39,018 bases of DNA, from assembly GCA_019114925.1 (NCBI GenBank), contig DXEO01000079.1:1-39018 (forward strand), in the 5' to 3' direction. Under the pieces are notes generated by a model that worked only from the letters and a program-made list of their open reading frames with translations, was not told where the DNA came from and did not search any database. Source of the DNA: Candidatus Corynebacterium faecipullorum. GTDB taxonomy: Bacteria; Actinomycetota; Actinomycetes; Mycobacteriales; Mycobacteriaceae. Both the position numbers and the translations under genes were made by a program. Shown here one piece after another: positions 27,082-38,296 of this stretch (positions are counted from its first letter, which is position 1; each line of letters starts with the position of its first letter).

Positions 27082-27196
27082 GTGTGTCCTTTCTGCTATC
27101 GCTCACGACTGACGCCTACCGATGGTAGGGAAGAGAGTTGAATATAAAAAGCTAGTCTTTCTCGCAACTGAACAGCTTGGTCTAGACTTGTGTCTC

Positions 27197-28357
27197 ATGA
27201 CTGACAACCGCACTCTTGGCTTTTCCTCCCGTTCCATCCATGCCGGTTACCAGCCGGATCCCTACATGGGATCCATCAACGTACCGATCTATGCCTCCAC
27301 CACGTACCAACAGGATGGCCTCGCGCAGCTGCGCGGCGGCTATGAGTACGGGCGCGTGGCCAACCCCACCGTTCACTCTCTGGAGAAAACTCTCGCCGCG
27401 CTAGAGAACGCCGAGTGCGCCCGCTGTTTCGCCACGGGCATGGCGGCCGTAGATACCCTCATCCGCATCCTTGTGCGCCCTGGCGACCACGTCATCCTCG
27501 GCAACGATGCCTATGGCGGCATGTACCGTCTCTTACACCATGATTACGGCGAGTGGGGTATCGAGCTGTCCATCGTCAACACCGCCGATACCGCGGCGGT
27601 GGAGGCGGCGTTGAAGGAGAACACCAAGCTCATCTGGTTGGAGACCCCGACCAACCCAGCGACGACAATCACGGATATCGCTGCTGTTGCTAAGGCGGTC
27701 AAGGCGGCTGGCGACGCCCAGATCGTCGTCGACAACACCTTTGCCACTCCCTACCTGCAGAACCCTTTGGAGCTAGGTGCGGATCACGTCCTGCACTCCA
27801 CCACAAAGTACCTGGGCGGCCACTCGGATGTGCTGGGCGGCGCGGTCGTGACCAACTCCGCGGAGATGGATGAGCGCCTGCTGTACTTCCAAGGCAACGT
27901 CGGTGCGGTGTCCTCGCCTTTCGACGCCTACCTCACCGCCCGCGGCATCAAGACCTTGGAAGTCCGCATGGATCGCCACTGTTCCAATGCGCAGGCTGTG
28001 GCGGAGTTCTTGGAATCCCGTCCAGAGGTCAAGCAGGTTCTTTACCCGGGCCTGCCCTCGCACCCGGGCCACGAGCTGGCGAAGAAGCAGATGCGCGGCT
28101 TCGGCGGCATGATGTCCGTGCGCTTCCACAGCGAGGAGCATGCCCGCCAGATTTGCCTCAACACCAAGCTCATCTCGCTGGCGGAGTCCCTCGGCGGTGT
28201 GGAGTCCCTCATCGAGCACCCGCAGAACATGACGCACATCTCCGCGGAGGGCTCCGAGCTCGTCCCGCCAGCAGACCTCGTGCGCATCTCCGTGGGTATC
28301 GAGTCCATTGATGATCTGCTCGCGGACCTGGAGCAAGCGCTCGACGCCCTAGCTTAA
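27197..28357 (+). CDS. metB: cystathionine gamma-synthase / trans-sulfuration PLP enzyme
   Basis: GFSSRSIHAGYQPDPYMGSINVPIYASTTYQQDGL; HSTTKYLGGHSDVLGG; ESLIEHPQNMTH. Confidence 0.92.
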   Translation: MTDNRTLGFSSRSIHAGYQPDPYMGSINVPIYASTTYQQDGLAQLRGGYEYGRVANPTVHSLEKTLAALENAECARCFATGMAAVDTLIRILVRPGDHVILGNDAYGGMYRLLHHDYGEWGIELSIVNTADTAAVEAALKENTKLIWLETPTNPATTITDIAAVAKAVKAAGDAQIVVDNTFATPYLQNPLELGADHVLHSTTKYLGGHSDVLGGAVVTNSAEMDERLLYFQGNVGAVSSPFDAYLTARGIKTLEVRMDRHCSNAQAVAEFLESRPEVKQVLYPGLPSHPGHELAKKQMRGFGGMMSVRFHSEEHARQICLNTKLISLAESLGGVESLIEHPQNMTHISAEGSELVPPADLVRISVGIESIDDLLADLEQALDALA

Positions 28358-28410: not shown

Positions 28411-30300
28411 TTAGAGGGAAGTGAGCAGTGAGCCGGCCGTGCGGTCGGTTTCCTGCAGCATGAGCGGGTCCGTGCCCGGCATGGGGGAGATGGTGGTATC
28501 CGGCCACTGCGAATAGGTGGGGATACCGACGATGTGCAGGCGCGAGTCCTCGGTTCCTCCGGGGTTGACCACGCGGCGGTTCCATGTTGTCTCCGGTGAG
28601 CCGGTGGCCTGGCCGTGGTCGACGAAGGCACGCACGCGCCCGTTGAGGGACACCGCGAGTGGATCGCCGGCGCGGCGGACATCGGGGGAGTGCATCCAGG
28701 CGTCGATAAGCCAGGTGGAGGAAGCCTCGCCGTGGGCGGTGCGCAGCGTGAACTTCTCGCCGATCTCCAGCTGGGGGCGCTGGCCTAGGAAGGTGACGAG
28801 GCCGGCGTCGACAAGCGCGAGCAGCTGGCGGGTGCGGAAGAGCGGCGGGCCGGAGCCCACCATCTGCCCGAAGGCCATGAACTCCTTGTAGGTGCTGGTG
28901 CGGGACTCCCACGTCATCCGGCCTTCCGAACCGGCGATGGAGGAGGGCTTACGCGCGGCCGAGATGGCCCACAGTGCGGACTTCAGCGGGGAATCGGCGG
29001 CGGCGACGGCCTCGACGATATCGCGCGCCAAACCTTCGGCGATGTACTCGGTGATCTCGGCGTTCTCAGTGTCCTTGAAGTCCGCCAGCGGGTGCGCCCA
29101 GTGCGCAAGGTCGAGCGGCTCAGTCGATGCGCCGTCGAGCGCGACGCGCAGCTGATCCGCCATGCCCCGAAGATCCGCGGCGCTGAGCTCCGTGGAATCG
29201 ATCGTGGCGAGGATATCCTCGAGCGGGCGCTGCAGGGCATCCGGTGCCACCCGCGCCTGGTTCTCGTAGTACTCGGCGTAGGCATCGCGCAGGATGTGCG
29301 GCAGCAGTTGCGTGCCGAAGTCCAGCTCCGCATCCGGATTGAGCGCGGCGACTGCGGCCCGGAAGCGGGTCAGCGCGGCCTTCGGTGGCAGCGCGTGGTA
29401 CTCCGACTTCGGGATATAGGGGTAGCCGCGGCCGGAGGAGACGATAAAGTGCGGTTCCTCGCCGTTCGGCTCATAGCGCAGGCCGGAGCGGGTAGAGGGG
29501 TCCTCCACGAACTCGCCGCCCCGGTCGATGGTGAGCAGCGCCATGACGTCGAAGAAACCCATGCCCAAACCGCGGACCAGGACCTTCTCGCCCGCAGGAA
29601 CCTCAGACACCGGCTGCTCCACGGGGTTATCCGGGCGCACCCAGTGCAAGCCGGAATCCGCAGCTTCGGCCAGCGCGCGCTCGGATTCGTTCAGGGCAGG
29701 TACCTGCCAGCCATAGGCCAGGACGGTGGCGTCGGCGGTGACGGTGGTGCCGTCGGAAAGCTTGATGGCGTCCTGCTCACCGCGCTCCTCCACGGACAGC
29801 GCGCGGGCGCGGTGCTGGACGACGTCCACGTTCTCTGGCAGCTGCGCCAGCGCAACCTTGAAAACCCACTCCAGGTAGGCGCCGTAGAGCGCACGGGAGG
29901 GGTTGGATTCCGGGCGGGTCTGCGCGAGCTCTTCGGCAAAAGAGGCAGCAAGCCCTTCGCGTGGCGGGTGGGAATCATAAAGCTCCAGCTTGGCAGGCGC
30001 GATGTCGGGGCGCTCGCCGCGCAGAAGCTGAATCCACTCATAGAGGATGGGGCCTTCAAGTACCGGCGCGGTGGTCGTGGAGCCGGGCTCGGTAAACAAC
30101 GTGACCGCGCCAGCCAACGTGTTCATGCACAGCGTGCGGGTCTGCTCCGTATCCCAAATGCGACCAGCGCCCAGCGGGGCATCGTCGATGATGTGGAGGC
30201 GCAGGGGTGAATGAAGGGGGGTCGCGCGCAGGTGGGCTGCGAGGCGCTCGACCAGCGAGATACCACGCGGGCCGGCCCCGACGATGGCGATGGCGGGCAT
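28411..30300 (-). CDS. FAD/NAD(P)-binding protein (PF13454-like oxidoreductase)
   Basis: MPAIAIVGAGPRGISLVERLAAHL; DAPLGAGRIWDTEQTRTLCMNTLAGAVTLFTEPGS. Confidence 0.85.
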   Translation of the reverse strand: MPAIAIVGAGPRGISLVERLAAHLRATPLHSPLRLHIIDDAPLGAGRIWDTEQTRTLCMNTLAGAVTLFTEPGSTTTAPVLEGPILYEWIQLLRGERPDIAPAKLELYDSHPPREGLAASFAEELAQTRPESNPSRALYGAYLEWVFKVALAQLPENVDVVQHRARALSVEERGEQDAIKLSDGTTVTADATVLAYGWQVPALNESERALAEAADSGLHWVRPDNPVEQPVSEVPAGEKVLVRGLGMGFFDVMALLTIDRGGEFVEDPSTRSGLRYEPNGEEPHFIVSSGRGYPYIPKSEYHALPPKAALTRFRAAVAALNPDAELDFGTQLLPHILRDAYAEYYENQARVAPDALQRPLEDILATIDSTELSAADLRGMADQLRVALDGASTEPLDLAHWAHPLADFKDTENAEITEYIAEGLARDIVEAVAAADSPLKSALWAISAARKPSSIAGSEGRMTWESRTSTYKEFMAFGQMVGSGPPLFRTRQLLALVDAGLVTFLGQRPQLEIGEKFTLRTAHGEASSTWLIDAWMHSPDVRRAGDPLAVSLNGRVRAFVDHGQATGSPETTWNRRVVNPGGTEDSRLHIVGIPTYSQWPDTTISPMPGTDPLMLQETDRTAGSLLTSL

Positions 30301-30320
30301 ATAAATCAACCTCAAACTTT

Positions 30321-30336
30321 TAGACTGTGCTGTCTA
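30321..30336. promoter_or_regulatory. candidate McbR operator TAGAC-N6-GTCTA
   Basis: TAGAC-tgtgct-GTCTA in the divergent intergenic region; exact match to the C. glutamicum McbR motif as recalled from the literature. Confidence 0.65.
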
Positions 30337-30418
30337 GTGGAATAATACAGCTCAGTATGTGTTGTGTTAAATCCAGAGACCAACACAAACCGACTATCGA
30401 CTTTCTGAAAGCATTACC

Positions 30419-32059
30419 GTGAAAACTCTACGCGCACTCGCCGCCACCCTGGCAGCAGCCCTCGCCTTAGCAGGCTGCTCCGCCGCGGACCGGCCGGACG
30501 GGGAGGATAACGTCCTCACTTACCTCGAGCCGCAATTCTTCCGCACGCTCTATCCGCCGGCCGCCGGCTTTTACCCCAACGGTGGCGTGGTCAACCAGCT
30601 CACCGACCGCCTCCTTTACCAAGACCCAGAGACCCTCGAGCTTTCGCCGTGGATCGCTACGGAGATGCCCAAGGTCAACGACGATGCCACGGAGTACACG
30701 TTTAATATCCGCACCGACGTCACCTACTCCGATGGCTCCCCGCTAACCGCCGAGAACGTCGTGGCCAACTTCGACCTCTTCGGGCGCGGCGACAAGTCCC
30801 GCACGCTGACCAGCTCCGAGCAGATCGCCAACTATGACCGCGGCGAAGTCGTGGACGAGGACACCGTGAAGTTCTACTTCACCCAGCCCTCCCCGGGCTT
30901 CCTCCAAGCCACCTCCGCCTATAACGCCGGCCTGCTCTCCGATTCCACGTTGGCTTTAGACAACGAGGGCTTCGGCCCCGGGAATGCGGTTAACGTCATC
31001 GGCTCTGGGCCCTTTGTGGTGGAATCGGAAGAAATCGGCACCGACCTCAAGCTCAAGACCCGCGAGGACTATGACTGGGCCCCGCCAGCGGTCGAGCATC
31101 AGGGCCGCGCGGATATCGACGGCATCCACTACATCCTCGCCGCCGAGGAATCCGTGCGCACCGGCGCTATCCTCTCCGGCCAGGCCGATATCGCCCGCCA
31201 GATTTCCGCCCCGCAGGAGCCGCTGCTTCAGGAACAGGGCATCGACATCATCTCGCGTGGCACCAACTCCATGAACAACCAATTCGCCTTCCGCTTCGAC
31301 CACCCGCTGCTGCAGGACAAGCGCGTGCGCGAGGCCATCATCCACGGCGTGGACCGCGAGGAAATCCTCCGCGTGCTCTTCTCCGAGTCCTACCCGCTGG
31401 CCACCTCCTCCGTGGCCGAGACTGGCCTGGCCTACAAGGACCAGTCCGCCGCCTATACCTTCGACCCCGAGGAGTCCAAGCGCCTCCTCGATGAGGCTGG
31501 CTGGGAGCCCGGCCCCGACGGCATCCGCGTCAAGGACGGCCAGCGCCTCGTCCTGCGTACCAACACCGCCTTGCCGCAGCCGCGCTCCAAGGAAGTCATG
31601 ACCATGGTGCAGGACCAGCTACGCGCCCTGGGAATCGGCATTCAGGTCAACGCCGGCGACCAAGCCACCCAGAACGCCGATGCCAAGGACATCAACAAGG
31701 TGCAGATCTACCACTCGATGGTGGGCCGCGCCGACTACGAGGTCATCACGTCGCTCTACGGCATCAACAACCGTGATGCCTTCCTCAACCAGGACGCGGA
31801 GGGCAATCCCATCGACGAGCACCTGCAGGAGCTTCTCGACGCCGTCCTCGACACCCCCGACAAAGAAGGCCGCATCAAGGCCACGGAAGAGGTCCAGGAC
31901 TACCTCACCGAGCAGGCCTACGTGCTTCCGCTCTTCGAGGAACCCGTGGTTTATGCGGTTCGACCAGGCATTTCGGGCTTTAGCCCAGAATCGGTGGCGC
32001 GGCCCTGGTTCTACGAGGTGTCCATCGACGCCGCGGCATCGGATGAAGAGGAGAAATAA
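30419..32059 (+). CDS. peptide/nickel-type ABC transporter substrate-binding lipoprotein (SBP family 5)
   Basis: Lipobox LALAGCS; LTDRLLYQDPETLELSPWIATEMPKVNDDATEYTFNIRTDVTYSDGSPLTAENV. Confidence 0.92.
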   Translation: MKTLRALAATLAAALALAGCSAADRPDGEDNVLTYLEPQFFRTLYPPAAGFYPNGGVVNQLTDRLLYQDPETLELSPWIATEMPKVNDDATEYTFNIRTDVTYSDGSPLTAENVVANFDLFGRGDKSRTLTSSEQIANYDRGEVVDEDTVKFYFTQPSPGFLQATSAYNAGLLSDSTLALDNEGFGPGNAVNVIGSGPFVVESEEIGTDLKLKTREDYDWAPPAVEHQGRADIDGIHYILAAEESVRTGAILSGQADIARQISAPQEPLLQEQGIDIISRGTNSMNNQFAFRFDHPLLQDKRVREAIIHGVDREEILRVLFSESYPLATSSVAETGLAYKDQSAAYTFDPEESKRLLDEAGWEPGPDGIRVKDGQRLVLRTNTALPQPRSKEVMTMVQDQLRALGIGIQVNAGDQATQNADAKDINKVQIYHSMVGRADYEVITSLYGINNRDAFLNQDAEGNPIDEHLQELLDAVLDTPDKEGRIKATEEVQDYLTEQAYVLPLFEEPVVYAVRPGISGFSPESVARPWFYEVSIDAAASDEEEK

Positions 32060-33067
32060 ATGACAACCCGCCAGATTCTCAGCCGCGTTGGGCAGGCCCT
32101 CCTTGTGCTGCTTATTACCTACACCGTGGCTTTCCTGCTTCTGTCGGCGCTGCCGTCGGATGCCGTGCAGTCCCGCTTCGGCGACCCAGCCCTGGGCCTA
32201 TCCCAGGCGGAGATTGAGGCCATTCGGGAGGAGATGGGTGCCGACAAGCCGCTCGTGGTGCAGTACTTCACCTCCCTGGGCGGCTTCCTCACAGGGCACT
32301 TTGGTAACTCCACGCAGTCGGGTGCCCCGGTAGCCACGCTGCTTGCCGACGCCCTTCCCCACACCCTCATCCTCGCCATCAGCGCCATCGGCTTGGCACT
32401 CATCGTGGCCGTGCTTGTGGCCTTCCTAGCCACGCTGCCGGGCCTCGGTGCCATCGGTTCCTTCTTCCGAGGTCTTCCTTCCTTCATGGTCTCGCTGCCG
32501 GGATTCTGGATTGCCATCCTGCTTATCCAGTTCTTCTCCTTCCAGCTGGGTTGGCTGCGTGTTATCGAACCCGGCAGCGTGGAGGGCCTCATCCTGCCCA
32601 CCCTGACGCTGTCGGTGCCCATGGCCGCGCCGTTGATTCAGGTGTTGATTCGCTCCATTGATGAGACGCAATCGCGGCCCTTCGTCCAAGCGGTACGCGC
32701 ACGCGGTGCTTCGGAGTCCTGGATCTTCTGGCGCACCGTCCTGCGTAATTCGCTGCTGCCCACCTTGACCATGGCGGGCCTGCTCTTCGGAGAGCTCGTT
32801 GGCGGTGCCGTGGTGACCGAGACTGTCTTTGGCCGTACCGGCTTGGGCTACATGGTGGCCCAGGCCGTGGCTAACCGCGATACCCCGGTTCTGCTGGCCG
32901 TGGTTCTCATCGCCGCCACTTCCTACATCATCATCAACCTCGTGGTGGATCTGCTCTACCCGGTGCTGGACCCGCGCCTGCGCGCCAGCACCCCGGAGCG
33001 AGCGGCCCGCCGCAGCACAGATTCCGCCACCTCGGCCGCTACTTCGGAAAGGACGGTGCGCTCATGA
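32060..33067 (+). CDS. ABC transporter permease (DppB-like)
   Basis: TM protein; VRARGASESWIFWRTVLRNSLLPTLTMAGLLFGELVGGAVVTETVFGRTGLGYM. Confidence 0.93.
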   Translation: MTTRQILSRVGQALLVLLITYTVAFLLLSALPSDAVQSRFGDPALGLSQAEIEAIREEMGADKPLVVQYFTSLGGFLTGHFGNSTQSGAPVATLLADALPHTLILAISAIGLALIVAVLVAFLATLPGLGAIGSFFRGLPSFMVSLPGFWIAILLIQFFSFQLGWLRVIEPGSVEGLILPTLTLSVPMAAPLIQVLIRSIDETQSRPFVQAVRARGASESWIFWRTVLRNSLLPTLTMAGLLFGELVGGAVVTETVFGRTGLGYMVAQAVANRDTPVLLAVVLIAATSYIIINLVVDLLYPVLDPRLRASTPERAARRSTDSATSAATSERTVRS

Positions 33068-33918
33068 GCATGACGCACACCAAACCGCTGCGTTCTACAC
33101 GGACGCCGCGCCGCGACACCTCTAACCCGTGGCTCGCGCCGGGTTCCATCATCGCCATCGTGATCCTCGCGATTGCCTTCCTGGCCGCGCTCTTCCCGAG
33201 CTTGTTCACCTCGGCTGACCCCTATGCCGGCACCGACGTGGCCCTGTTGCCGCCGGGGGAGTCCGGCCACCTCATGGGAACGGACGCGGTGGGCCGCGAT
33301 CTCTATGCGCGCATCGTCTACGGTGCCCGCCAGTCGCTCCTCGGGGCGCTCATCGCCGTGGCTGTCGGCCTCGTCGTCGGCACGCTGATTGGTCTTCTCG
33401 CCGGCTCCCTGCGAGGAGCGGTGGATAGCGTTCTCATGCGCGTCGTCGACGTGTTGCTGTCCATCCCCGGCATCCTGTTGTCGCTGTCCATCATCATCGT
33501 GCTGGGTTTCGGCTCCGTGCAGGCGGCGGTGGCTGTCGGTGCGACCTCGGTGGCGACCTTCGCGCGCCTAGCCCGCTCCCAGGTAATCTCCGTGGCCAGC
33601 TCGGATTACATCGAGGCCGCCTACGGCACGGGTGCCACTCACGCCACCGTGCTCTTCCGCCACATCCTTCCCAACTCACTGACCCCCGTCATCGCCTTGG
33701 CCACCCTGCAGTTCGGCACCGCCATCCTGCAGCTGTCCATCCTCGGCTTCCTGGGCTACGGCGCGCCGCCGCCGACCCCAGAGTGGGGGCTTATCATCGC
33801 CGAGGGCCGCGACTTCATGGCCACCGCCTGGTGGCTCATCATCCTGCCCGGCATTGCGCTGGTGGCCGTGGTGATGTCCGCCAACCGTCTGTCCCAGAAC
33901 TTCCCCGTGGAGGCCTAA
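33064..33918 (+). CDS. ABC transporter permease (DppC-like)
   Basis: LMGTDAVGRDLYARIVYGARQSLLGALIAVAVGL; overlaps upstream stop. Confidence 0.93.
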   Translation: MSMTHTKPLRSTRTPRRDTSNPWLAPGSIIAIVILAIAFLAALFPSLFTSADPYAGTDVALLPPGESGHLMGTDAVGRDLYARIVYGARQSLLGALIAVAVGLVVGTLIGLLAGSLRGAVDSVLMRVVDVLLSIPGILLSLSIIIVLGFGSVQAAVAVGATSVATFARLARSQVISVASSDYIEAAYGTGATHATVLFRHILPNSLTPVIALATLQFGTAILQLSILGFLGYGAPPPTPEWGLIIAEGRDFMATAWWLIILPGIALVAVVMSANRLSQNFPVEA

Positions 33919-33919
33919 C

Positions 33920-35578
33920 ATGTCTGTTACAAAAAATGCAGCGCAGCCCCTGCTGCGCGTGCGGGACCTCAACGTGTCCTATTCCACTGCCGGTGGCGAC
34001 GTTCCTGCCGTACAAGGCGTCAACCTCGAGGTTCACCCGGGGCAGATGACCGCCATCGTGGGCGAGTCCGGTTCCGGCAAGACCACCTCCGCTATGGCAG
34101 CCATCGGTTTGCTGCCCTCGAATGCCACTATCGATGCCGGCACCATCACCTTCGATGGCCGCGATATCACCTCCCTGCGTCGCCGTCAGTGGCGTGAGCT
34201 GCGTGGGCGACGCATCGGGCTCATCCCGCAGGATCCCAATAACTCCCTCAACCCAGTGCAGACCATCGGCGCCTCGGTGGAGGAGGGGCTGCGCATCCAC
34301 AAGGTCGGCACCGCGGCCGAGCGCAAGGCTAAGGCACTGGAACTCCTGGAGCGCGTCGGCATCGATGACCCTGAGCGCCGCTATCACCAGTACCCGCACG
34401 AGCTGTCCGGCGGCATGAAACAGCGGGTGCTCATCGCCGCCGCCGTGGCGCTGGAGCCTGACCTCATCATCGCCGACGAGCCCACTTCCGCGCTGGATGT
34501 CACCGTGCAGAAGATCATCCTCGACCTCCTTGACGACATGCGCGCAGAGCTCGGCATGGGCATCCTCTTCATTACCCACGACCTCGCCGTGGCCGGCGAC
34601 CGCGCCGACCGCGTCGTGGTCATGGAAGCCGGCCAACTGCGCGAGGAAGGCCTGGCCGCCACGGTGTTGACGAACCCGCGCCACGACTACACCAAACGTC
34701 TGCTTGCCGACGCCCCCTCCCTCACCGTAGCCGACGCCGGCGCGACGACTACACGCGCCGCCAAGGTCGCCGCAACCACTGACCGCTCCGCCGACACACC
34801 GCTGGTACGCGTGGAGGGTCTGACGCAGCGCTTCGGTGATTTCACCGCGGTCGATGACATCTCCTTCACCGTGGCCAAAGGATCCACCCACGCCATCGTG
34901 GGCGAGTCCGGCTCCGGCAAGACCACGACGGGGCGCAGCATCGCCATGTTCAACACCCCGACTTCCGGCAGCATCACCGTGGGCGGGCGCGACATCGTGG
35001 GCCTGCGCGGTAGAGCCTTGCGCGAAGAGCGAAACAACATCCAGCTGGTCTACCAGAACCCTTATGGCTCGCTGGATCCCAAGCAGACGATTGGCCAGAC
35101 GGTGGCGGAGCCGCTGCGGAATTTGAAGGGGGCGTCGGCAAGCAATGCGAAGGCCAAGGCCAAAGAGTTCCTAGAGTTGGTTGCCCTCAACCCGGATTAC
35201 TACGATCGGCGCCCCCGCGAGCTCTCCGGCGGTCAGCGCCAGCGCGTGGCTATCGCGCGCGCGATGATCGTGGAACCGGAGCTGGTCATCCTCGACGAGG
35301 CCGTTTCCGCCCTCGACGTCACCGTGCAGGCCCAGATTCTGCGCCTGCTTGCCCGGCTGCAGGAGGAGCTCGGTCTGACCTACATCTTCATCTCGCACGA
35401 CCTAGCGGTGGTCAACCAAATTTCCGATACCGTCTCGGTGCTCTCGAAGGGCCAGCAGGTGGAATATGGGCCTACCACCGAGGTCTTTAGCAACCCGCAA
35501 TCGTCGTTTACCCGAAAGCTCATCGAGGCCATCCCCGGCTCGCGTTACCGCGCCGGCGACCTCAACCTGGGCCTGTAG
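33920..35578 (+). CDS. ABC transporter ATP-binding protein, DppD-DppF fused
   Basis: Two Walker A (GESGSGKTT) and two LSGG signatures in 552 aa. Confidence 0.93.
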   Translation: MSVTKNAAQPLLRVRDLNVSYSTAGGDVPAVQGVNLEVHPGQMTAIVGESGSGKTTSAMAAIGLLPSNATIDAGTITFDGRDITSLRRRQWRELRGRRIGLIPQDPNNSLNPVQTIGASVEEGLRIHKVGTAAERKAKALELLERVGIDDPERRYHQYPHELSGGMKQRVLIAAAVALEPDLIIADEPTSALDVTVQKIILDLLDDMRAELGMGILFITHDLAVAGDRADRVVVMEAGQLREEGLAATVLTNPRHDYTKRLLADAPSLTVADAGATTTRAAKVAATTDRSADTPLVRVEGLTQRFGDFTAVDDISFTVAKGSTHAIVGESGSGKTTTGRSIAMFNTPTSGSITVGGRDIVGLRGRALREERNNIQLVYQNPYGSLDPKQTIGQTVAEPLRNLKGASASNAKAKAKEFLELVALNPDYYDRRPRELSGGQRQRVAIARAMIVEPELVILDEAVSALDVTVQAQILRLLARLQEELGLTYIFISHDLAVVNQISDTVSVLSKGQQVEYGPTTEVFSNPQSSFTRKLIEAIPGSRYRAGDLNLGL

Positions 35579-35606: not shown

Positions 35607-36794
35607 ATGGCAGACATCATTAACCTAGTGTCGGGTGTTGAGGGGGACGTCGCCAAGCTGCGCGAGCGCCGGCTCGAGGCCAAGGAGAATGCGCAAGCCT
35701 CCTTCGCTGCACTCCTCGAGCCTGCAGAGCCCGGTACGTTCAGCTACGCGGAGCGCTACGCCATCGCTACCTTCGTTGCTGGCATTTATCAGGCTCCGCG
35801 GGCGGTGGAGTTCTATTCCGACCTGCTGGCGGAGGAATCGGAGGAGCTCGCTGCAGAAGTAGCCCGCGCGGTGGAGCGCGGCATCACCACCGGCCCGTAC
35901 TCCGGTGGTGGCTTCACACTTTTCGACGGCTCCCCGCGCCTCGCCGCCGCCCTCGACTTCGCCCACCTGCTGGTCTTCCACCCCAAGGACGCCTCCCCGG
36001 CTGCGATTGGTCACCTGCAGGCTAACGGCTGGACCAACGATGACATCGTGTCGTTGGCACAGCTGGTCAGCTTCCTGTCCTTCCAGCTGCGCGTGGCGCA
36101 CGGCCTTTCCGTGCTTGCCGGTACCGAACGGCCCGCGCCCGTGACTGAGGCGCCGTGTCCCACCCAGACCCCGGAGTGGGTGCCGGGGGAAGGGACGCTG
36201 GTGCCGGACGTCGCCAAGCCGCAGGGCTTTGTGGCGCACTCGCTGGGTTGGAAGCCGTGGGTGCCGCCGCAGCCGAAGGATAAGTTCACGGAGGCGCAGC
36301 GTGACGCACTGATTAAGCCCGAGCGCATTGATATGGAGTACTTCCGACTGTTGGCCCGCGACCCGGCCGCGCTCAAGGCGCGCACGCTCACGGACCTGGA
36401 CATCTTCTACAACATCGACGGAGGATTGGGCCGCGCCGAGCGTGAGCTGGCCGCCACGGTGGTATCGCGGCTCAACGGCTGCGAGTACTGTGCGTCGGTG
36501 CACCAGCAGCGCGCGAAGGAAGAAGGTGGTGACGCGGCGGCGATTGACCGTTTGCTCGAGGAAGGGGTAGGCGCTGACCTGGGCTCAACTCAGTGGTCCG
36601 CTATCCGCGATGCCGCCTTGGCGCTGACCGAGTCGCCTTTTTCCTTTGACGCCTCCCACGTGTCTGGTCTCCGCGAAGCCGGTTTCGATACGCTGGCCAT
36701 CATCGACGTCATCAATTCCTCCGCGTTCTTCAACTGGGCTAACCGCCTGATGCTGACGCTGGGGGAGCCGGATGTGCCGAAGCGCTTTCGCTAA
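35607..36794 (+). CDS. fused double carboxymuconolactone-decarboxylase (AhpD-like) domain protein
   Basis: C-half RLNGCEYCASVHQQRA (CxxC-SVH); N-half CMD-like FSYAERYAIATFVAGIYQAPRAVEFY without CxxC. Confidence 0.85.
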   Translation: MADIINLVSGVEGDVAKLRERRLEAKENAQASFAALLEPAEPGTFSYAERYAIATFVAGIYQAPRAVEFYSDLLAEESEELAAEVARAVERGITTGPYSGGGFTLFDGSPRLAAALDFAHLLVFHPKDASPAAIGHLQANGWTNDDIVSLAQLVSFLSFQLRVAHGLSVLAGTERPAPVTEAPCPTQTPEWVPGEGTLVPDVAKPQGFVAHSLGWKPWVPPQPKDKFTEAQRDALIKPERIDMEYFRLLARDPAALKARTLTDLDIFYNIDGGLGRAERELAATVVSRLNGCEYCASVHQQRAKEEGGDAAAIDRLLEEGVGADLGSTQWSAIRDAALALTESPFSFDASHVSGLREAGFDTLAIIDVINSSAFFNWANRLMLTLGEPDVPKRFR

Positions 36795-37549: not shown

Positions 37550-38296
37550 GTGTCCACTTCTCAACGCCGCCGCCCCGCCTACTTGGTGATCGCGGATTCG
37601 CTTAGGAGCAAGATCGAATCCGGCGAACTGAAGCCGGGCGACCGCTTTCCCACCGAGCGGGAATTGGTTCAGGAATACAAGGTGGCGCGCATGACGGTGC
37701 GCCACGCGCTGGATATCGTCCAGATTGAGGGCCTTATTGACCGCAAGCGCGGGCGCACTGGAGGCACGTTTGTGCGTGCCACCCCGCCGACGCTGAGCCT
37801 GACGAGTGGGCGCAGTGCCCTCGACCAATTGCGCGAGCATGGCCTTGAGGTTGAGGTGCGGGTGCTGTCGTTGGTGTTTATTGAAGCACCTGGGCACCTC
37901 GCCTCTACCTTCGGGATTGAGGAGGGTGATTTCGTGTGGGAGTGCCGCACGGTGCAGGTCTCAGCGGGCTCGCCCATCATGGCCTCCACGCTTCTTATCC
38001 CGCAGGCCTTGGCGCCGAGCCTCACGGAAGAAGAAATGCAGAAACCGCTGGCCGAGCTGTTGACGGAGCTTAACCTGGCACCAGTGTTTAAGCGGGACTC
38101 CCTCGTGGCTGCGACCGCGCGCACGGAGGAGCAGAAAGCACTGGGCGTTGGGCGCAACCAGCCGGTCTTGCGCATTACACGAACCGTCAAGACGGAGGGC
38201 GGCGTCGTTGCCGCTCAGCTGGAAGAGACCCTGCGCCCCGATGCGGTCACGGTGGAGGTCGTCATCGGCGAGGATCCCACGCCCACCCTCGACTAG
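37550..38296 (+). CDS. GntR family regulator with UTRA domain (HutC subfamily)
   Basis: IESGELKPGDRFPTERELVQEYKVARMTVRHALDIVQIEGLIDRKRGRTGGTFV; GTG start. Confidence 0.92.
   Translation: MSTSQRRRPAYLVIADSLRSKIESGELKPGDRFPTERELVQEYKVARMTVRHALDIVQIEGLIDRKRGRTGGTFVRATPPTLSLTSGRSALDQLREHGLEVEVRVLSLVFIEAPGHLASTFGIEEGDFVWECRTVQVSAGSPIMASTLLIPQALAPSLTEEEMQKPLAELLTELNLAPVFKRDSLVAATARTEEQKALGVGRNQPVLRITRTVKTEGGVVAAQLEETLRPDAVTVEVVIGEDPTPTLD

Follow-up and report, generated by a model that had tools for sequence, protein, structure and literature searches.

McbR is a TetR-type dimer that acts as a repressor of sulfur-amino-acid genes in corynebacteria. Its regulon in C. glutamicum was described by Rey et al. 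2005 and is considered here as far as it is given in papers citing that work (PMC2580772, PMC2807442, PMC6892785), in which the gene cluster cg2678-cg2674 already appears as a repressed member. McbR further controls ssuR and cysR, which encode ROK regulators, as well as genes of methionine and cysteine metabolism, and mcbR itself is listed under McbR control (PMC2580772). The binding sites typically, or at least often, lie between the -35 and -10 elements and overlap the promoter (PMC2580772), and published work on C. glutamicum names S-adenosylhomocysteine as the effector.

We analysed a stretch of 39,018 nucleotides (the window) from a Corynebacterium close to C. aurimucosum and C. minutissimum. 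Between an FAD-dependent monooxygenase-like gene (FAD gene) and the gene of an ABC transporter substrate-binding lipoprotein (SBP), it holds a palindrome that, with a probability of about 0.92, represents the tighter-binding of two dyads in a tandem McbR operator, which would place the divergent FAD/TIGR04028-transporter promoter under sulfur-responsive repression.

Results

The perfect dyad TAGACtgtgctGTCTA at 30321..30336 (no strand) is the predicted primary McbR operator, based on its exact consensus match and its conservation in promoters. A sequence-only reading had described a perfect TAGAC-N6-GTCTA palindrome here, unique in the window, 21 bp from the FAD gene and about 80 bp from the SBP gene. 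This description holds throughout: the sequence reads TAGACTGTGCTGTCTA with 0 mismatches, ttTAGACtgtgctGTCTAgt was found where it had been placed, a pattern scan of the 39 kb returned one exact match, and the distances are 21 bp from the site start to the ATG at 30300 (minus strand), which is served by a GAGG ribosome-binding site, and 83 bp from the site end to the GTG at 30419. The motif had also been correctly recognized as the published McbR consensus, given as TAGAC-N6-GTCTA in PMC2723105 and PMC9210681. Together with the evidence below, this makes the 16-base palindrome very probably an McbR operator.

The genome of the host (2.12 Mb, 83% complete, 235 contigs) contains 14 TetR_N proteins, as determined by a search of the contigs, and an McbR orthologue is among them (G000:C81, L012). 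With 202 aa, it is 72-73% identical to McbR of C. glutamicum, and the helix-turn-helix stretch including the recognition helix, RVIGIDRILREADVAKASLYSLFGSKDALVIAY, is the same in both proteins. As the C. glutamicum reference we take genome G064, which encodes the C. glutamicum McbR sequence at 99.5%. Across the genus, mcbR was found in 238/242 genomes. Upstream of the host's own mcbR lies CATACcggtttGTCTA, with two mismatches to the consensus, which is consistent with the listed control of mcbR by McbR.

A whole-genome motif scan, which the sequence-only reading had proposed as a check, gave four exact sites in the host and none for the reversed control motif. Besides the palindrome, these sites are located upstream of metK (contig C30, TIGR01034), of a Meth_synt_2/MetE-like gene (contig C20, PF01717) and of a ROK-family regulator gene of the cysR/ssuR type (contig C73, PF00480), so that all four adjoin expected or plausible McbR targets. 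Sites with one mismatch were not enriched in this genome, with 27 matches (exact ones included) vs 44 for the control, and the one-mismatch scan was dropped as a regulon predictor because the control gives more matches. Two of its matches are credible: C73:57275, which adjoins the exact site of the ROK gene, and C68:1495, ~120 bp upstream of cysH. Exact-motif counts across the genus were likewise rejected as evidence, since they often did not exceed those of the reversed control. The lack of enrichment and the control-level counts make the motif by itself weak to modest evidence.

At the ROK gene (L004/L021, G000:C73:57241-57290), two McbR-type sites are spaced by 34 bp, the second with one mismatch. 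Comparable pairs with a spacing of 34-35 bp occur in G005, G006 and G011.

The reading of the palindrome as an McbR site becomes convincing through position-specific conservation rather than through the motif itself. To assess conservation, we assembled 103 loci that contain an orthologue of the SBP gene. A search of the genus contributed 30 of them and retrieved stretches another 60; the remaining 13 are named loci (C. aurimucosum, C. minutissimum, C. striatum, C. flavescens, Leucobacter and others), some of which duplicate genomes of the genus set. In the orthologous intergenic regions the palindrome is exact in 57/103 and has at most one mismatch in 85/103, while the reversed motif reached this level in 0/103 and the whole set of controls, with altered spacers (4, 5, 7, 8), swapped arms or the reversed motif, in at most 2/103. 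After similar regions had been collapsed, 25 of 63 diverged representatives retained an exact copy and 48 a copy with no more than one mismatch. There is free variation at the six spacer positions (e.g. TGTGCT, TGCCTA, CCGTTT), and the palindrome is kept in place while spacer and flanks diverge. Counting against the assignment, 18/103 promoters have at least two mismatches, although mcbR is nearly universal. Two loci from Leucobacter, in which the FAD and SBP genes are likewise arranged divergently, lack the palindrome; one of these genomes gave no McbR match and the other a match of 35% identity at best. Absence of an mcbR orthologue or of conservation in orthologous promoters had been named beforehand as the observations that would speak against an McbR site; both the orthologue and the conservation were found.

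A second, degenerate dyad, AATACagctcaGTATG, which is a putative operator, lies at 30344..30359 (no strand), 23 bp downstream of the first when measured from start to start. With the palindrome as anchor, we aligned the 48 diverged promoters and used ATAC/GTCTA as the criterion for a second copy. Such a copy is present at 21-24 bp in 34/48 promoters, in 31 of them at exactly 23 bp, while other offset windows match in 0-10/48. At the 23-bp offset, 5.8 of 10 positions match on average, against a background of 2.5 (sd 0.43), and the right arm GTCTA is exact in 23/48. Most relatives have GTCTA as the right arm of the second copy, and the left arm mostly reads [AG][AG]TAC, a form of TAGAC fitted to an AT-rich promoter element. 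The host copy deviates from the consensus in both arms, with mirrored changes (G to T, C to A) that leave an ATAC-N6-GTAT dyad; in the C. glutamicum reference the pair consists of TAGACaggttgGTCTG and TATACcgatcaGTCTA, 22 bp apart. By its match to the consensus, the palindrome is the stronger of the two tandem dyads; the second one does not appear in the sequence-only reading.

The two dyads lie among promoter-like sequences. A consensus scan yielded a putative FAD-gene promoter, TTAACA-N17-TATTAT (30342..30370, minus strand, 10/12), and a putative SBP-operon promoter, TTTAGA-N16-AATAAT (30319..30346, plus strand, 9/12), vs 0.2 matches expected in shuffled sequences. They are arranged face-to-face and have an AATAATA stretch in common. 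The first dyad falls within the spacer of the putative SBP promoter and also covers the position at which transcription from the putative FAD promoter would be expected to start, the second overlaps the -10 element and spacer of the putative FAD promoter, and both predicted operators thereby cover the best FAD-strand promoter match of the window. An extended -10 element, TGTGTTAAATC (30363-30373), with a TGTGTTA core that recurs in relatives, could be an alternative element of the SBP promoter. As the dyad pair overlaps both facing promoter-like sequences, a single repressor complex could silence both genes.

The SBP gene (30419..32059, plus strand) is the orthologue of cg2678; the protein is 63% identical to its counterpart in the C. 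glutamicum reference genome and passes the curated cut-off of TIGR04028 (NCBIfam, 850.7 vs 468.5 bits). A literature search for KPN_01854, the prototype of TIGR04028, gave no paper. On the same strand follow two ABC permeases (32060..33067, cg2677 orthologue; 33064..33918, cg2676 orthologue), a duplicated ABC ATPase (33920..35578, cg2675 orthologue) and a fused CMD and alkylhydroperoxidase-domain (AhpD) protein (35607..36794, TIGR04029 and TIGR04030, cg2674 orthologue). The operon matches the C. glutamicum cluster gene by gene and in the same order. The sequence-only reading had regarded the palindrome as a direct link between the sulfur regulon and a transporter without assignment; since the orthologous cg2678-cg2674 cluster is already listed as McbR-regulated, this link is not new. 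In rhizobia, the CMD (TIGR04029) and AhpD-domain (TIGR04030) parts are separate proteins, which are joined in the fused protein at 35607-36794. A GntR/UTRA-family regulator gene (37550-38296), downstream of an SDR gene, adjoins the operon.

The FAD gene (28411..30300, minus strand, PF13454 in Pfam) is divergent from the SBP gene in 100/100 loci where both are visible. Its product shows full-length homology to the Streptomyces L-aspartate N-hydroxylase 8CP2 (E 2.8e-60). In the alignment, however, Arg412 alone is kept of the aspartate-site residues Arg266, Arg409, Arg412, Asn413 and Arg416. An assignment as aspartate N-hydroxylase was rejected due to the loss of these residues, and the substrate of the FAD protein is probably a different one.

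Of the FAD-family genes without an intact SBP gene next to them, 13/38 are preceded, at 26-99 bp, by a site with no more than one mismatch, compared to 0/38 for the control. FAD orthologues without the transporter have mostly lost the palindrome too, and its main role may therefore be in transporter control. Taken together, the sites at stand-alone FAD genes and the loss along with the transporter suggest that the pair controls the transporter in the first place, with the FAD gene as a probable second target. From these sequences the FAD gene is probably also an McbR target, although it was not found as a co-target in the McbR-regulon literature searched.

Exact palindromes are found 70-75 bp upstream of the stand-alone FAD paralogues L161 (G001:C1), L180 (G024:C1), L193 and L194. 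In L162, L164, L173 and L184 the SBP operon is lost, the palindrome is gone and the FAD gene still resides beside the SDR gene, an arrangement that looks like a clean operon deletion.

The window contains a further predicted operator, which had been missed in the sequence-only reading. The degenerate McbR-type site TGAACagcttgGTCTA (27169..27184, plus strand, 2 mismatches) ends 12 bases ahead of the start codon of metB, encoding cystathionine gamma-synthase (27197..28357, plus strand, NCBIfam NF005871, 614 bits). All eight relatives with a readable metB start (8/8) have this operator as TGAAC/TGTAC/TGGAC-agcttg-GTCTA. The metB start was set at 27197, as relatives align from that Met, and is probably better than the long-ORF start at 27122. 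With the metB site and the palindrome, two predicted McbR-type operators are present in the window.

Discussion

The arrangement suggests the following mode of regulation. At sufficient sulfur supply, an McbR dimer would occupy the perfect dyad and probably also the weaker one 23 bp downstream, thereby blocking RNA polymerase at both overlapping promoters. S-adenosylhomocysteine would release McbR and allow expression of the transporter and probably of the FAD gene, the products of which most likely scavenge an organic sulfur compound.

Three other explanations of the palindrome were considered. Its origin by chance has next to no probability: the control counts indicate that the genomes of many corynebacteria hold a few exact matches by chance, but the conservation of the site at the same place between diverging flanks, in 85/103 promoters vs 0/103 for the control, already refutes this explanation. 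The palindrome could also be bound by a different TetR-type regulator with a similar motif, and the ~13 further TetR_N proteins of the genome would provide candidates. As the motif equals the McbR consensus, the recognition helix of McbR is unchanged and the same exact motif is found at metK, the MetE-like gene and the ROK regulator gene, we regard this as highly improbable.

More weight has to be given to the explanation that the palindrome governs the transporter operon alone, with the FAD gene as a bystander that has its own constitutive promoter. The site is gone from those SBP-less FAD genes that still neighbor the SDR or GntR genes (L162, L164, L167, L173, L184), and no conserved promoter is observed at a fixed distance from it towards the FAD gene, both of which would fit a bystander. 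The sites at 13 of the 38 FAD-family genes that lack a neighboring intact SBP gene (control 0/38), the exact copies before the four stand-alone paralogues and the coverage of the window's best FAD-strand promoter match by both operators argue in the opposite direction, and make a mere bystander role rather unlikely. We hence favor a tandem McbR operator that acts on the transporter and probably on the FAD gene.

More tentatively, the genes may constitute an organosulfur module, in which the TIGR04028 importer, a flavin monooxygenase with an altered pocket and the CMD/AhpD partner would act together in oxidative sulfur release. A cooperative 23-bp tandem McbR operator would jointly silence importer and oxygenase, and the stand-alone FAD paralogues would have joined the McbR regulon separately. 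With its 23-bp spacing, the predicted tandem operator lends itself to a straightforward test of McbR cooperativity. The predicted operator ties an uncharacterised transporter and probably a flavin enzyme to sulfur starvation across the genus Corynebacterium, and due to this tie the search for the cargo can be narrowed to organic sulfur compounds. The tandem pair, the shared promoter overlap, the probable link to the FAD gene and the metB site are contributed by this analysis and are modest additions to a known regulon.

The closest described system is the McbR regulon of C. glutamicum, with which the host has the consensus, the regulator orthologue and the target operon cg2678-74 in common; the companions, i.e. 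methionine genes, a ROK regulator and the cysH cluster, are similar as well. The operators differ from the C. glutamicum pair in that the first dyad of the host is perfect and the second is decayed. In the McbR regulons of C. variabile (predicted) and C. jeikeium (studied), the same master regulator has been extended to sulfur scavenging, but the scavenging genes, namely taurine genes and proteases, differ from those of the host (PMC3219685). The L-aspartate N-hydroxylase (PDB 8CP2/8CP5, PMC10404684) resembles the FAD protein over the full length and differs in the aspartate site. Rhizobial TIGR04028/04029/04030 cassettes contain the SBP, two permeases, the duplicated ATPase and the CMD and AhpD-domain proteins, as does the host operon. 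They additionally include an FMN-dependent luciferase-like monooxygenase, which is missing from the host operon, where the FAD monooxygenase-like gene is located divergently instead. The presence of the FMN monooxygenase in the rhizobial cassettes makes an import-and-oxidise role plausible.
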